Assembly: GCF_000834655.1 (NCBI RefSeq) | Contig: NZ_JXQQ01000028.1 | Location: 248,001-312,000, forward strand | From: Variovorax paradoxus | GTDB lineage: Bacteria > Pseudomonadota > Gammaproteobacteria > Burkholderiales > Burkholderiaceae_C | Length of the DNA stretch: 64,000 bases | Direction: 5' to 3' | In this document: one piece after another, positions 56,077-64,000 of the stretch | Layout: each line of letters opens with the position of its first letter | Numbering within the stretch: position 1 is the stretch's first letter | Program-made: the position numbers and the translations under genes | The notes under the pieces: generated by a model | What the model saw: only the letters and a program-made list of their open reading frames with translations | What the model was told of the DNA's origin: nothing | Database searches by the model: none

Positions 56077-56792
56077 GCGACTACTGGAAAAATCACTACG
56101 ACGCCAATGCCGAGAAGTTTGCGGACTCGCCCCTGAAGCAGGTCGACAGAACCATCAATGGGGAGGAAATGAGCCAGGCGCAGCTCGACCTGACCATCGA
56201 CGCCGTAGTTCAGGCGTTGGATCTGCAGCGTGGTGATCGTCTTGTGGACCTGTGCTGCGGCAACGGCCTCATCACCGAGGCCATCGCTCGCCAGGTCGAG
56301 AAAATAGTCGGCGTCGATTTTTCCGAAAAGCTGGTGGAGTTCGCGCGGCAGTCCAATAGCGCGCCGAATATCGAGTACGTGGTCTCGGATGTATCCAAGC
56401 TTCCCAGCGACTTCTTCGGCGAAGCCAACAAGGTCTACATGCGCGACTCCGTCTCATGCCTGAACTCCGAAGGGCTCTCCAGGCTCTTTCGACTGATCGG
56501 TGGCGCGGCGCATTTCGAAAAGCTCTACATCGCCGGTGTGCCCGATGCCGACAAGCTCGCCGTCTACTACGACGACGACGAAAAGATGGCTTTCTATCGC
56601 CAAAGAGAGGCCATGGGCAAGCCGCATATCGGCACATGGTGGACCGAAGAGGAGATTAGGAAACTGATCGAAGCAGCCGGATTGCAAGTCTCTTTCTACG
56701 CGCAACACCGGGAGCTCGCGAGCGCGTACTACCGCTTCGACTGCGTCATCGAGAGGGCTCGCCCCGCCTCTCAGCCCGATTCCGGAGCGTGA
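56073..56792 (+). CDS. Class I SAM-dependent methyltransferase
   Basis: Starting at the ATG at 56073 (4-nt overlap with the previous gene), the 239-residue protein has the SAM motif I in RLVDLCCGNGLITEAIARQV, followed by IVGVDFSEKLVEFARQ, and NKVYMRDSVSC. It has no membrane segment. Within this cluster it probably methylates a sugar or glycan precursor. The next gene starts at the GTG overlapping its TGA. Confidence 0.92.
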   Translation: MSDYWKNHYDANAEKFADSPLKQVDRTINGEEMSQAQLDLTIDAVVQALDLQRGDRLVDLCCGNGLITEAIARQVEKIVGVDFSEKLVEFARQSNSAPNIEYVVSDVSKLPSDFFGEANKVYMRDSVSCLNSEGLSRLFRLIGGAAHFEKLYIAGVPDADKLAVYYDDDEKMAFYRQREAMGKPHIGTWWTEEEIRKLIEAAGLQVSFYAQHRELASAYYRFDCVIERARPASQPDSGA

Positions 56793-59700
56793 CCATGCCT
56801 AGAGTTCTGGTTGTCCTCACATCCTTCAACCACGCGGCGCATCTGGGCGAATCCATCGACAGTGTGCTGGGCCAGACTTTCTCGGACTTCGAACTGGTCG
56901 TCCTGGACGACGCGTCTCGAGACCATTCCTGGAAGTTGATCTCCGAATACACCGACCCGCGTCTTCGAGCGTTCTCGAGCCGGGCTCCCGGCGAGGTCGT
57001 GCACCGAACGAACGATGCTTTCTCGCGCACGAACAGCGAATACATCGCACTCCAGCATTCGGATGATGTGTGGAAGCCGGAAAAGCTTCAACGCCAGGTG
57101 GCTTACCTCGACGCGCACCCGGAGATCGGCGCGGTCTTTACTTGGGTACAAGTCATCGACGAGACAGGCGCCCGAGTCGACAACGACTGGTTCGATCGGC
57201 ACAACCAACCGCGTTGGGCATGGCTGAATGAGCTGTTCAATCAGAAGAACACGCTCAACCACCCCAGCGCTCTTATTCGAAAGCGCTGCTACGACGAAGT
57301 CGGAGGCTATCGCTACGGACTTGCGCAAACAGACGACGCCGACTTCTGGAGCCGGATCCTGGTGCGGCATCCGATTCACGTGCTCCAGGAAAAGCTGACG
57401 ATGCACAGGATCTTCACCGACAAGTCGAATGTCAGTGGAGACCGTCCCGAGGTGGCGGTGCGCAGCGCACACGAATGGAATTTCTTGCGCGAGAACCTTC
57501 TCGCATTGCGCGACTTCGACGAGATCGTCCGCGTGTTTCCCGATCTCGAACCCTTTCGCCGTGAGGCCGGTTTCAACGTCAAATTCCTGCTGGCCATGGC
57601 ATGCGTGCGATCGCCGAATCGCAGCGCCTGGCCCCTTGGGCTTGACTGGATGTTCGAGCTGCTGAATGACAAGGCGCAAAGAGATCAGCTCGCCGAGCTC
57701 TATGCATTCACCGATCTGAGCTTTGTAAAGCTGTCCGCTTCGCTCGATAGCTACCTGCTGGAATCCAGCAAGCAGCTCGACCAGACGGTTGCCGATTACG
57801 AGGCCAAAGTCAGCGGCGTGCTGTCCGAATACGCGACCTTGCAGGGTGTGCTCTCCCAACGCGACATCATGCTGAAGGATGCGACGAGCGAGTACGCGCG
57901 CAACATGCAACGCCTGCAAGATGAATACATCGAGGCAGCGAAGATCGTTCAGGCGCGGCACGCCCAAGCCCTGGCGGATTCAGAGAGAGAGCTTGAAGAC
58001 CTGCGCCTTGCGAAGTTGAAGACAGACCAGAAGGCTGCCGAGGCCGAAGACCTTGTCGAAACGGAGCGCAAGAGAGCCGATGCTGCGCGTCAAGAGGCGG
58101 AAGCGCAGAGCGCCAGGGCCGATGCGGCGCGCTCGGAGGCGCAAGCGCAGAGCGCCAGAGCCGATTCGGCAAGAGCGGCAGCCGAAGCAGAAGGCGCCAG
58201 GGCCCACGCGTCGTTGGCGAAGGCTCAAGCGCACAGCGCGAGGGCCGACGCCGCCGAGCGTGAAGCAACTCAACAGCGGGAGCGAGCGCTGAACATCGAG
58301 AATCAGCGGGAGGCCATTGCGGTGCGCCTTGCTGCGTTGGAGTCCAGCTCAAGCTGGCGCGCTACAGCTCCCCTGCGACGCTTGCTGGTCGACAAGCCGC
58401 GCACCGCGCAAACAATCCGTCGCGCGGCAAAGCTGGTCTGGTGGACCGCCAGGTTCCAACTCTTGCAAAAGTCGCGTGAATGGCGAGCGCGGCGGCAAGC
58501 AGCGCGCCTGCCCGCCACAGTCGAGGTCGTGCAACCGGTCCCAGATACGCCGGTGACGGCACCAGTCTTCGTGGACGACGTGAGTCAAGTGCCCGAGCAC
58601 TGCGCAGATGCGCTGTCGTTCGAGAAGGCCCAGCTCTCGGAATGGCTGCAGGCGGCGAAGACCTGTCTTGCAAGCAGCGACCGCCCCGCGCTGTCGCATG
58701 CGCTCCTGCTTCGCTACTTCAATTGCCTCGAACTCTCCACGACGACTGCGAACGCGTGGATAGATTTGCTCGAAGCGCCGGCAACGCAATTGCCCGAAAA
58801 ATCGGAAGAGTTCGCATCGTTGGCTGCGAGCTTCAAGTCGTACTCGCGAGTGGGCGACTTTGCAGCTTATCTGCGGGACAGCCCGCTCTTCGATCCCGAT
58901 TTCTACCGCGCCCAACTCCTCCTCGAGATGAGCGACACCGACGCCGTCTGGCACTATCTTCTCGTGGGCGAGCCGCTCGGTATTTATCCCTCTCAGGCAT
59001 TCGATCCGAGCTACTACGGCAAGAAATATCCGGATGTGACGGAAGCCGGCATGAACTGCCTCTTTCACTACATCATCGGCGGGCAGCGCGAAGGTCGCCG
59101 CGCTACCATGCCGCTGATTGCGCACAGGACGGGCGCCACACCGATCGATCCGCAAAAGGAAAATGTGGTTCTGGTGGTTCACGAGACCTCACGGACCGGA
59201 GCCCCCATCCTCGGCTGGAACATCGCCGTGATCCTCGCAAAGAAGTACAACGTTTTCAGCGTGCTTCTGGGAGACGGTGCGCTGACGCCCGACTTCGAGG
59301 CCATCAGCTGCGAGACCGTCGGACCGCTGGACGGCGTGCACACAGCGCCGCTAGAAGCCGAATTTGGGCTCGCGCCGTTGTTTGCTGGCCGTGCGTTCAA
59401 GTACGCGATAGTCAACAGCGTTGAATCGCGCGTAACGGTCGAGGTCTGTGCCAAGCATTCCGTCCCGACAGTGCTGCTCGTGCATGAATACGGCTCCTAT
59501 GTCTGGCCGGCGTCGGCGCTGGGCAAGGCACTCGACATGGCCACGGAGGTGGTCTTTCCAGCCGCATCCGTCGCAAGGTCATCGATGCAAACGCACCCGC
59601 CGCTGCGCAGTCGCAGCATGCATATAGAGGCGCAGGGCATGTCTCTGCTGCCCTCCAGCCGCAATGAGACTGTCCGACAGAATCAGGACGAACGCATTCG

Positions 59701-60349
59701 TGCTCTGATGCAGATTCGAGCGGGCGGGGCGATGATCGTTACCGGCGCCGGCTCTGTGAACATCCGCAAGGGAGTGGATGCATTCATCGGCGTGGCCGCC
59801 GACGTCAAGCGCATCGGCGGAGCCCAGCCGATCCACTTTCTGTGGGTGGGCGGTGGCTACCGTCCGAACGACGATATGGGCTACTCGGTCTACCTGAAAG
59901 AACAGATGGCGCGTTCCGATGTCGAGGACTTCATCACCTTCATCGACGAAGTCCAGGACCTTGAGCCTATCTACGCGATGAGCGATTTCTTCATGCTGGC
60001 ATCGCGCCTCGATCCCCTGCCAAACGTATCGATCGACGCGGCACAGCGCGGAATACCGACCATCTGTTTCAAGGAGGCCAGCGGGATGGCCGATCTATTG
60101 CTTGCTGACCCCGACACGTCCATTGGCGTTGTACCTTACATGGATACTCGCGCGGCCGCGGAGGTCATCTTGCAGCTGGCGACAGATGATCCTGCCCGTG
60201 CTCGACTGAGCGAAGCGACACGCCGCCTGGCCGAGGCAGCTTTCAACATGGAGCGGTATGTGCAGCGGCTCGATCGCATTGGCAGTGCGCACTCGCCAAG
60301 CGGCATTCAACGCCGGCAGATCGATGAACGTACGATGGTGTCCGCCTAG
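56789..60349 (+). CDS. Giant two-domain glycosyltransferase (GT2 + coiled coil + GT4-like)
   Basis: The 1186-residue protein reads from a GTG overlapping the previous stop; an ATG two codons later (56795, MPRVLVV) is an equally likely start. Residues ~3-260 are a GT2 domain (VLVVLTSFNHAAHLGESIDS, LDDASRDHSW, QHSDDVWKPEKL). Residues ~325-515 are a long coiled coil with degenerate QSARADAAR repeats. Residues ~690-800 carry two FDPDFYRAQ/FDPSYYGKKYPDV repeats found in large bacterial glycosyltransferases. Residues ~790-1150 are a GT4-like domain with VVHETSRTGAPILGW and the acceptor-site region ASRLDPLPNVSIDAAQRGIP. It probably adds two different sugars to one acceptor. Confidence 0.92.
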   Translation: MTMPRVLVVLTSFNHAAHLGESIDSVLGQTFSDFELVVLDDASRDHSWKLISEYTDPRLRAFSSRAPGEVVHRTNDAFSRTNSEYIALQHSDDVWKPEKLQRQVAYLDAHPEIGAVFTWVQVIDETGARVDNDWFDRHNQPRWAWLNELFNQKNTLNHPSALIRKRCYDEVGGYRYGLAQTDDADFWSRILVRHPIHVLQEKLTMHRIFTDKSNVSGDRPEVAVRSAHEWNFLRENLLALRDFDEIVRVFPDLEPFRREAGFNVKFLLAMACVRSPNRSAWPLGLDWMFELLNDKAQRDQLAELYAFTDLSFVKLSASLDSYLLESSKQLDQTVADYEAKVSGVLSEYATLQGVLSQRDIMLKDATSEYARNMQRLQDEYIEAAKIVQARHAQALADSERELEDLRLAKLKTDQKAAEAEDLVETERKRADAARQEAEAQSARADAARSEAQAQSARADSARAAAEAEGARAHASLAKAQAHSARADAAEREATQQRERALNIENQREAIAVRLAALESSSSWRATAPLRRLLVDKPRTAQTIRRAAKLVWWTARFQLLQKSREWRARRQAARLPATVEVVQPVPDTPVTAPVFVDDVSQVPEHCADALSFEKAQLSEWLQAAKTCLASSDRPALSHALLLRYFNCLELSTTTANAWIDLLEAPATQLPEKSEEFASLAASFKSYSRVGDFAAYLRDSPLFDPDFYRAQLLLEMSDTDAVWHYLLVGEPLGIYPSQAFDPSYYGKKYPDVTEAGMNCLFHYIIGGQREGRRATMPLIAHRTGATPIDPQKENVVLVVHETSRTGAPILGWNIAVILAKKYNVFSVLLGDGALTPDFEAISCETVGPLDGVHTAPLEAEFGLAPLFAGRAFKYAIVNSVESRVTVEVCAKHSVPTVLLVHEYGSYVWPASALGKALDMATEVVFPAASVARSSMQTHPPLRSRSMHIEAQGMSLLPSSRNETVRQNQDERIRALMQIRAGGAMIVTGAGSVNIRKGVDAFIGVAADVKRIGGAQPIHFLWVGGGYRPNDDMGYSVYLKEQMARSDVEDFITFIDEVQDLEPIYAMSDFFMLASRLDPLPNVSIDAAQRGIPTICFKEASGMADLLLADPDTSIGVVPYMDTRAAAEVILQLATDDPARARLSEATRRLAEAAFNMERYVQRLDRIGSAHSPSGIQRRQIDERTMVSA

Positions 60350-62292: not shown

Positions 62293-64000
62293 TCAATCAG
62301 CCTCTTGGTCCACCGCCGCGCCACGGTCCTTGATCCGCGTGACCTGCGACAGCACCGCATCCTCCGACGTCATGTCCGGCCGCGGCCCCTTGTAGACCGG
62401 TTGCTCGAACTTGCCGCCCGCGTAGCGATAGAGATAGCGCACCTCCACCAGCGTGCCCGCCGCGGGCAGCGCCTCGTTGGGCGGCACGGTCACGTTGCCC
62501 ATGTCGACCATCGCGCCCGTCTCGTCGCGCAGCCCCACGGCCACCGAGCGCTGCGCGTTCACGCGGATCACCTCGCACGTCGCGCTCTGGTTGAACTTGA
62601 ACTTCAGGCTCGCGGTGCTGCGACCCGCAGCGAACGGCGCGGCGAGCGCCTTGAGCACATAGCCTTCGCCATGCGCGGCCAGTAGTTCAGCCGCGCGGCG
62701 GCGCTTGCCTTCGGCGGTGGTCTCCAGGTCGAGCACCACCATCCACGGCAGGTGCGCAACGGTCTTGTGCAGATGGCCGAAGCGTTCGATGAAAGGCGCG
62801 CCACGCAGATCCTGGCCATCGAGCTCCAGCAAGTCGAAGGCCTTGAAGCCATCGCCGACATGCTCGCCCGCGATGACGGTGCGGCCCGCCGATGCAACAG
62901 AACCGCCGGTCCAGGCCTGCGGAATGTCGACGAAGAGCCCGCGGCGGTTCGTGCCGCGTACCGTTTCTCCCTCGATCAGCAGGATGCGGTTCTCGCCATC
63001 GGCCTTTTCCTGCAGGCCCCAGCCCGCGTCGTCGAAGTAGCGCGCCACCTGCGCTTCGAGAATCAGCGTGGGCAGTTGCGGCAGCTCGCCGCTGATGCGG
63101 CCGGCGAGGTCGGTCGAGGTGTAGAGCGCGCCCGACTGGTCGGGCGTGTAGCCCTTGGAGGTCTTCTCCTTCACGACCTTCTCGTAGATCTTCAGCGCGG
63201 CCTCGAAGGCGATCGGGCTGCTGGTCTTGGTGCCGGTGGCGAGCGTGCCGCCGCGGCGCCCATTGCCGTAGTCGACCACCCAGCCATCGTCCTTGGGGCG
63301 CAGGTGGACCTGGTAGACCTTGTCGGAGCCCTGGCCCGTGAAATAGAGAAAACTCGATTGCGATCCCTGTCCGCCAGCCGCTTGCGCGACGGGCACGGCC
63401 GAAGGCGTCGGGTTGCCCGGAGGCTTCGCAGGCGGGCTCGCTTCACGCAAATCGACCTCCGGCCGCATCGACGCGGCTCCGTTCCACCGCACCTCGAGGC
63501 CCGCCTTTCGGAAGTGTTCGACGATGAGTTCGCCGACGCGCAGCATGTCGGCATCGGCGCCCTCCGGCGCGCCCCAGTACGCGAGCGACAGCTGGCTGGT
63601 GCTCTTCGCGCGGTTCAGGTCCTGCCGTGTGTAGAAACAGAAGCCATGCACGCCGGCCGACTCGCCGCCTCGCTCGTGGAATGCCTCGGAGCAGTCGGAG
63701 AAACCATCGGACTGCGTTTGCCCCGCGTCTTGCAGCGCGACGAGGCCAGCCTTCGTCAACGCCTCGAAGACGGCATCGATCTTCGTCTTGGCGGCACGCC
63801 ATTGCGCGGTCGTCATCTTCACCGGATCGGGCTCGGGCGGTGGTGGTTCCGGAATGGGTTTGCCCGTGACGCGCGCGAGGAGCGCGACCACCTCTTCCAT
63901 CATCGCGTTCACCGTGATGTGGTTGCCGTGCCCGTCGCTGATGTCGGCCTTGGCGCCGGCATCCAGGAGCAGTTGCACCGCATCGGTCGTGGGCGCGAAC
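62293..64000 (-). CDS. Ankyrin-DUF6891-WGR-ATP-dependent ligase fusion, C-terminal part
   Basis: The frame is open to the right edge, so only the C-terminal 569 residues are visible; the true start lies outside. The visible start (VQLLLDAGAKADISDGHGN) reads as an ankyrin repeat. About 60-165 residues in, a segment with GVHGFCFYTRQDL and LSLAYWGAPEG resembles DUF6891. A WGR domain follows (SDKVYQVHLRPKDDGWVVDYGNGRRG). Then comes a full nucleotidyltransferase: motif I EKADGENRILLI, with the probable nucleophile Lys, FKAFDLLELDGQDLRG (motif IIIa-like), GEGYVLKAL (motif IV), SLKFKFNQSATCEVI (motif V) and a C-terminal OB fold (VGNVTVP-like, then VEVRYLYRYAGGKFEQPVY). It should be an adenylating ligase; nucleic-acid ends or another substrate are both possible. 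The fusion is inferred from one uninterrupted frame. Confidence 0.85.
   Translation of the reverse strand, partial: FAPTTDAVQLLLDAGAKADISDGHGNHITVNAMMEEVVALLARVTGKPIPEPPPPEPDPVKMTTAQWRAAKTKIDAVFEALTKAGLVALQDAGQTQSDGFSDCSEAFHERGGESAGVHGFCFYTRQDLNRAKSTSQLSLAYWGAPEGADADMLRVGELIVEHFRKAGLEVRWNGAASMRPEVDLREASPPAKPPGNPTPSAVPVAQAAGGQGSQSSFLYFTGQGSDKVYQVHLRPKDDGWVVDYGNGRRGGTLATGTKTSSPIAFEAALKIYEKVVKEKTSKGYTPDQSGALYTSTDLAGRISGELPQLPTLILEAQVARYFDDAGWGLQEKADGENRILLIEGETVRGTNRRGLFVDIPQAWTGGSVASAGRTVIAGEHVGDGFKAFDLLELDGQDLRGAPFIERFGHLHKTVAHLPWMVVLDLETTAEGKRRRAAELLAAHGEGYVLKALAAPFAAGRSTASLKFKFNQSATCEVIRVNAQRSVAVGLRDETGAMVDMGNVTVPPNEALPAAGTLVEVRYLYRYAGGKFEQPVYKGPRPDMTSEDAVLSQVTRIKDRGAAVDQEAD

Follow-up and report, generated by a model that had tools for sequence, protein, structure and literature searches.

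LigD- and LigC-type NHEJ ligases have a ligase core like that of the protein described here. The accessible part of a review of bacterial ligases names LigB, LigC, LigD and LigE, and the word WGR does not occur in that part (PMC5052709). The WGR domain is known from PARP1, PARP2 and PARP3, and that of PARP2 bridges 5'-phosphorylated DNA ends (PMC8190142). Type XIII retrons have a WGR protein of their own; one such retron, detected by PADLOC, is mentioned in a Variovorax paper (PMC11953036). Among the matches listed in the open-access literature that we searched, none described a WGR-ligase and none described a ligase partner of retrons; no mention of DUF6891 was found in that literature. WGR-ligases are a poorly described family.

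We analysed a stretch of 64,000 nucleotides from a Variovorax genome (the window, G000:C60:248001-312000), at the end of which a gene on the minus strand of contig C60 encodes ankyrin, DUF6891, WGR and ATP-dependent ligase parts in one chain. The window edge truncates the N-terminus, and the open frame passes position 64000. With flanking DNA added, the gene occupies C60:310293-312251 and encodes 652 amino acids from an ATG start with no internal stop, so that the single unbroken frame described in the initial annotation holds; the adjacent DNA, where that annotation had suggested looking for the true N-terminus, supplies 84 more residues. The features of the gene are collected in the table below, in which the ligase motifs carry the names customary for the covalent nucleotidyltransferase superfamily. 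A long plus-strand open reading frame across the fused gene is probably a mirror frame of the kind common in high-GC DNA. Near the gene, at window positions 56789-60349 on the plus strand, lies an open reading frame of 1186 amino acids that looks, by eye, glycosyltransferase-like with a long coiled coil.

Table. Features of the fused gene, in window positions; fractions give conservation among aligned members.
Feature	Position	Strand	Details
Ank-DUF6891-WGR-ligase gene, part within the window	62293..64000	-	residues 85-652 of 652; N-terminal 84 residues fall outside it, up to C60:312251
Ankyrin region, C-terminal part	63862..63999	-	Pfam ankyrin matches cover residues 6-106, mostly outside the window
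DUF6891	63454..63786	-	residues 156-266; Pfam E 4.8e-26
Variable in-frame linker (fusion joint)	63364..63441	-	residues 271-296; pN/pS 0.61; length changes
WGR domain	63127..63363	-	residues 297-375; Pfam, PADLOC; pN/pS 0.05
ATP-dependent ligase, nucleotidyltransferase and OB fold (predicted)	62317..63111	-	residues 381-645; structure model and fold alignment
Motif I lysine K416 (in KADGENR)	63004..63006	-	K in 27/27
Motif III glutamate E463	62863..62865	-	27/27
Motif IIIa F472-D473	62833..62838	-	27/27
Motif IV EGYVLK, E529-K534	62650..62667	-	E and G 27/27; K 26/27 (R in 1)
Motif V KFK, K550-K552	62596..62604	-	first K 27/27; second K 24/27
Motif VI-like RxD, R624-D626, end of OB fold	62374..62382	-	27/27

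The four parts are recognized with different strength. Pfam ankyrin models match the N-terminal region (best E 1.2e-11) and DUF6891 exceeds its cut-off, whereas the WGR match (residues 307-373, E 0.0016, 18.9 bits against a PF05406 cut-off of 22) and the DNA_ligase_A_M match (residues 464-552, E 3.6e-5, 24.0 bits against 26.2) are both sub-threshold. At the family level both become firm: a Pfam WGR match at E<=0.01 is present in 22 of 27 aligned relatives (best 1e-13), and DNA_ligase_A_M matches all 27, as do the PHROG model of ATP-dependent DNA ligases and the PADLOC model WGR_XIII of type XIII retrons. WGR_XIII is also the best-scoring of the WGR models scanned for the fused protein, matching its WGR part with an E of 3.2e-26, and a profile built from the 27 members finds the PARP3 WGR in the PDB (E 0.0034). 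By Pfam, the annotated ankyrin and DUF6891 parts are borne out directly, and the WGR and ligase parts at the level of their relatives. DUF6891 itself has a weak predicted structure (mean pLDDT 64.7), and no relatives of it were found in our search of viral contigs. Judging by ankyrin repeats in general, the Ank-DUF6891 part is probably an added protein-binding or regulatory adaptor.

The ligase part is complete, as had been proposed. The motif residues are kept across the 27 relatives, and the catalytic lysine, whose loss in homologues had been named as a reason for doubt, is retained in every one of them. The aspartate of motif I (KxDG) is replaced by asparagine in a single member. When the 27-member profile was compared with the PDB, the best match was the ligase domain of Mycobacterium tuberculosis LigD (E 1.8e-15), with a main matching stretch that runs from motif I to motif V; an additional match at the motif VI end lacks significance when taken alone. 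The predicted structure of the WGR-ligase shows a nucleotidyltransferase domain followed by an OB fold (mean pLDDT 89.3). In the suggested comparison with known ligases, in which model residues 89-355, and mainly 89-353, are aligned, it matched DNA ligases with Z scores of about 20: DNA-bound human LIG1 (8vdn) at Z 19.7 and 3.3 A over 265 residues, and LigD (6nhx) at Z 19.8 over 241 residues, with an rmsd of 10.8 A that reflects a different setting of the two domains. The LigD fold score is thus tied with those of other DNA ligases.

We propose, with a probability of roughly 0.6, that the fused gene encodes a LigD-like DNA ligase that depends on ATP, in which the WGR domain would serve as a break-binding module and to which Ank-DUF6891 would have been joined later, a reading drawn from sequence comparison and structure prediction. 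It is favoured because the motifs are kept in 27 members, among them copies from plasmids and phages that are only 31-41% identical, because the PDB profile, the fold matches, the PHROG assignment and repair-type neighbours (see below) agree, and because every domain is under purifying selection. Counting against a ligase of DNA breaks are the Pfam WGR and ligase scores below their cut-offs, the form KxDGxN of motif I, the RNA ligase matches in 13 of 27 members, the replaced tryptophan of the WGR domain, the other ATP-dependent ligases of the same genome and the uninformative neighbours of several plasmid copies. Of the new repair or nucleotide-tagging system suggested initially, repair is the best-supported reading, and for tagging we found nothing beyond the common nucleotidyltransferase fold.

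Motif I is where the substrate comes into question. In the fused protein it reads KADGENR, with N where KxDGxR has R and an R one residue later, and across the 27 members this position is R in 22, N in 4 and H in 1. KxDGxN occurs in 10 of the 11 Variovorax rows of alignment A1, the exception being a divergent plasmid copy of G008, and a Rhodoferax plasmid copy has KxNGxN. The motif I of Rnl2-type RNA ligases is KxxGxN, a pattern that KADGEN fits and that the KxDGxN of the Variovorax/Rhodoferax clade presumably resembles. With motif I changed from R to N, an altered substrate is possible in this clade; because the arginine of KxDGxR is absent, our claim is that the enzyme works like a DNA ligase, and not one of settled membership. 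It is conceivable that the enzyme of this clade is instead a ligase of RNA, RNA/DNA hybrids or another polynucleotide, as suggested by these motif I forms, by the PF09414 RNA_ligase model, which matches 13 of the 27 members (the fused protein itself not among them), and by the annotation of two plasmid copies as RNA ligase family. However, DNA_ligase_A_M matches the whole set, DNA ligases head both the PDB profile and the fold matches, and repair genes are neighbours of the WGR-ligase on two viral contigs; we regard a substrate other than DNA as improbable.

The resemblance to LigD is confined to the ligase core. Unlike LigD, the fused protein has a WGR domain, carries neither a polymerase nor a phosphoesterase domain by Pfam, and is not linked to Ku. 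A LigD-like multi-domain enzyme is ruled out by the absence of polymerase and 3'-phosphoesterase domains in the Pfam search. The host genome contains six DNA_ligase_A_M places, including the fused gene, and two Ku places, which lie on C137 and C41, with none on C60. The presence of these other ATP-dependent ligases and of Ku points to an accessory role for the WGR-ligase.

The comparison with PARPs is likewise partial. The WGR domain is shared, but a PARP catalytic domain was not found in the fused protein by Pfam, which rules out a PARP-like enzyme, and the tryptophan of 'WGR' is replaced by N; W is present in only 2 of the 27 members. PARP-style break recognition can therefore not be assumed. 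On the preferred reading as a DNA ligase, the WGR domain would, by analogy with PARP2, grip nicks or ends that carry a 5' phosphate and would bring the ligase core there. The catalytic lysine would then take AMP from ATP and hand it to the 5' phosphate, after which the joint would be closed; both the use of ATP and the DNA substrate are presumed in this scheme. The WGR-ligase would act as an accessory repair gene on plasmids and phages, residing in Variovorax mostly in one chromosomal slot. A single clade of the genus has an Ank-DUF6891 gene joined to the front of the WGR-ligase, probably as an adaptor.

The initial annotation had read the sensor-ligase fusion as a possible functional unit. 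This view has to be given up: a stand-alone two-domain WGR-ligase of about 360-380 amino acids is present at 14 of 19 named Variovorax loci and the fused form at only five, and the WGR-ligase also stands alone on plasmids and in phages, so that the WGR-ligase, and not the fusion, is the functional unit. The stand-alone plasmid and phage proteins have the same two domains end to end as the ligase part of the fused protein, but they lack Ank-DUF6891 and their motif I is mostly KxDGxR. Plasmid matches amount to 21 records, 17 of them with a query coverage of 80% or more, in Rhodoferax, Mycolicibacterium, Mycobacterium, Tsukamurella, Acidisarcina, Acidiphilium, Azospira, Dyella, Rhodanobacter, Pseudomonas and Variovorax, and thus in Actinomycetota, Acidobacteriota and Proteobacteria. 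One phage record (Tunturi_5, 309 kb) and 16 IMG/VR loci, one of them partial, carry the gene as well. Among the subset of IMG/VR contigs checked for phage genes, terminase was seen on L059, L065 and L068, a portal protein on L068 and a DNA polymerase on L069. Among genomes of the phylum, the WGR-ligase was found at E<=1e-20 in at least 1 of 398 (a lower bound), the one being the host genome itself.

Alignment A2 draws on 12 of the 16 IMG/VR loci (L057 and L061, whose proteins are identical to those of L056 and L060, L063 and the partial L070 were omitted) and on 10 of the 21 plasmid records, leaving out the Variovorax plasmids, one Rhodanobacter record, a Halopseudomonas copy that is split, and three records from Paracoccus, at least two of which are LigD. 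The ligase of the fused gene is 31-41% identical to the 24 A2 rows outside its own Variovorax clade. Plasmid and phage copies are annotated variously as 'WGR domain-containing protein', 'RNA ligase family protein' or 'ATP-dependent DNA ligase'. Two further proteins were noted near copies of the WGR-ligase. A Variovorax plasmid protein (L032:6441-7313, minus strand), which has an intact WGR-ligase some 15 kb away, matches the WGR-ligase profile at positions 3-187 only, with motif I absent by eye; and an IMG/VR contig of 478,840 bases (L067:5038-9128) has a second WGR protein, of 365 amino acids, near its WGR-ligase.

Several of the copies outside Variovorax have neighbours that fit DNA-end handling on mobile elements, namely SbcC, Ku, PRTRC and ParB/ArdC genes. 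On the terminase-bearing, phage-like contig L065, the WGR-ligase gene shares 4 bases with an SbcC-like gene, which is itself preceded at a distance of about 1.1 kb by an SbcD-like gene. The three genes (L065:3486-9080) are on one strand, with a helicase after them and the terminase before. A Ku gene lies about 6 kb from the WGR-ligase on another IMG/VR contig (L066:7992-16416), the WGR-ligase stands ahead of PRTRC genes and ssb on three Dyella and Rhodanobacter plasmids, and the gene order on the Acidisarcina plasmid is ArdC-ParB-ligase. The neighbours of several other plasmid copies are uninformative on repair.

The full-length fusion is present in frame in seven Variovorax genomes: the host of the window, G033 and five named ones (IB41, ZS18.2.2, two V. 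boronicumulans strains and 770b2). Named Variovorax loci that match the fused gene region are 91-94% identical to it. Mean pN/pS among the seven fused genes is 0.16 for the ankyrin part, 0.19 for DUF6891 (computed across residues 141-270) and 0.14 for the ligase, with the linker and WGR values in the table; purifying selection acts on all domains of the fused protein, most strongly on WGR. An assembly error joining two genes, which had been named as a possible source of the fusion, is spoken against by its full length in seven genomes, and these together with the selection rule out both such an error and a chance frame.

It could still be argued that the fusion is a functionally meaningless read-through that joins two unrelated genes, each working alone. 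Ank-DUF6891 does stand alone at the same locus in one genome (G032) and the ligase stands alone elsewhere, the linker is poorly conserved, and an ATG codon at the end of DUF6891, upstream of the linker (M262), is present in all seven fused genes and would permit internal translation; from the sequence, a separate WGR-ligase made in this way is possible. But the linker varies in length and sequence among the seven genes and the joint frame is intact throughout, with purifying selection on the domains at both sides. Between M262 and the WGR domain, ATG is absent in six of the seven genes, and ATG, GTG and TTG are all absent in two of them. The stand-alone Ank-DUF6891 of G032 may itself be a later loss, since this genome falls among the fused ones in a tree of two flanking genes (support values 54 and 90). 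We therefore consider a meaningless read-through very improbable.

The history of the gene can be read in part from trees. In the ligase tree, all seven fused sequences group together (ultrafast bootstrap 82) within a background of stand-alone ligases. This pattern fits a single fusion event, and by this sequence evidence Ank-DUF6891 appears as a recent, clade-specific addition to the WGR-ligase. It is possible that G032 lost the ligase half of a fused gene; its place within the fused group allows more than one sequence of gain, fusion and loss. In Variovorax paradoxus 2u118 (L151:6001-6840, on a record of 1.3 Mb), an Ank-DUF6891 match of 78% covers residues 1-278 only, and the ligase part of the query is unmatched at that locus.

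In Variovorax the gene resides in a recurrent chromosomal slot. The fused gene is flanked by MocR/epimerase genes on one side and by a GNAT-RIO-BtuF-SET block on the other, of which only the GNAT side falls within the 20 kb fetched for the host genome. Across the genus the slot is occupied by a retron and a divergent WGR-ligase, by the retron without the ligase (G009, G473), by a lone ligase (G017), by a lone Ank-DUF6891 gene (G032) or by the fusion. The initial suggestion to look for adjacent genes conserved in other genomes was thus borne out for the slot flanks common to Variovorax, but 4 of the 19 named ligase loci have neither these flanking genes nor a retron.

The retron in this slot, an anti-phage element, is of type XIII. 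WGR_XIII was identified by PADLOC on the retron protein of three Variovorax genomes (best E 4.6e-273), RT_XIII on one RT (E 1.2e-192) and SWIM_XIII on one SWIM protein (E 2e-223), and the remaining retron loci were assigned by tblastn to these PADLOC-identified proteins. A complete, three-part retron lies divergently beside the ligase at 8 of the 14 stand-alone named loci, with 146-208 bp between matched ends. RT_XIII, SWIM_XIII and WGR_XIII were found at none of the five named fused loci, and no relative of WGR_XIII was found in the host genome (E<=1e-10). Of 61 Variovorax genomes, a WGR_XIII protein is present in 8, a WGR-ligase in 17 and the two together in 6. Each of the 8 also has an RT no more than about 5 kb from its WGR_XIII gene, the ligase adjoins the retron in 6 of these 8 (about 1 kb off in G014), and WGR_XIII is absent from the five fused genomes of the set (G000, G033, G458, G472 and G474).

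The type XIII retrons showed further features. In L025:1-6861, L117 and six more Variovorax loci, the SWIM and RT genes are separated by roughly 290-340 bp between matched ends, which is likely the place of the retron RNA. One of the eight ligase-adjoining retrons, that of Variovorax sp. E3 (L034:7405-12288), has its WGR and SWIM genes each in two pieces, and may be broken or lie on a contig with sequencing errors. The N-terminal WGR of the Variovorax retron proteins and of those of other Burkholderiales (L143-L146) is, by eye, eroded (GSDKVY and YGRRG absent); in L148 and L149, which represent a different family, the retron protein retains it.

This linkage raises the possibility that the Variovorax WGR-ligase is a working accessory of the adjoining retron, which seals or shields DNA (reverse-transcribed by the retron or the cell's own) or sets the retron trigger, and that the clade of the window lost the retron and re-wired the ligase to an Ank-DUF6891 sensor. 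Besides the adjacency at the stand-alone loci and among the 61 genomes, this would explain why both occupy the same slot between MocR/epimerase and GNAT/RIO genes, why the WGR of the ligase strongly matches the retron WGR model, and why they co-occur by genome (6 of 8 against 11 of 53, Fisher p 0.004 with relatedness ignored). The retron WGR protein, whose model is the WGR model that scores strongest on the ligase part of the fused protein and which is a genomic neighbour in many Variovorax, is nevertheless a different protein of about 1050 amino acids, with HEAT repeats and no ligase.

Outside Variovorax the association disappears. WGR-ligase was found in none of five retron-bearing Burkholderiales genomes (E<=1e-5; partial matches to other proteins in two of them), nor was it seen in the 20 kb surrounding two additional retrons from a different family. 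The retron-bearing genomes outside Variovorax were drawn from 300 genomes of the order, with 5 matches, and from 398 of the phylum, with 3 matches, 2 of them new. Within the genus, the retrons of G009 and G473 lack the ligase, and a tblastn search with Variovorax proteins found no retron parts at 34 viral, plasmid, phage and Variovorax ligase loci (L051-L084). The ligase as a general part of type XIII retrons is rejected on the five retron genomes outside Variovorax; it is a local companion of the Variovorax retron and not a core retron part. Common slot and common ancestry could account for the linkage, and we consider a working role in the retron unlikely.

A bolder reading, which we regard as unlikely, is that WGR-ligases form a new class of ATP-dependent ligases, borne by mobile elements and islands, that would both sense and seal 5'-phosphorylated breaks with a single polypeptide. 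In Variovorax they would act as the sealing or self-protection arm of a type XIII retron island, and in the clade of the window an Ank-DUF6891 sensor, fused directly to the ligase, would have taken the place of the retron. If this were true, the swap from retron to Ank-DUF6891 would give a defence or repair switch within one protein. Break binding and sealing combined in one polypeptide would make a minimal, Ku-free end-joining enzyme, and the WGR-ligase could possibly serve as a nick-targeted ligase tool. The Variovorax slot, with retron and ligase in some genomes and the fusion in others, offers a natural comparison on whether retrons recruit repair enzymes.
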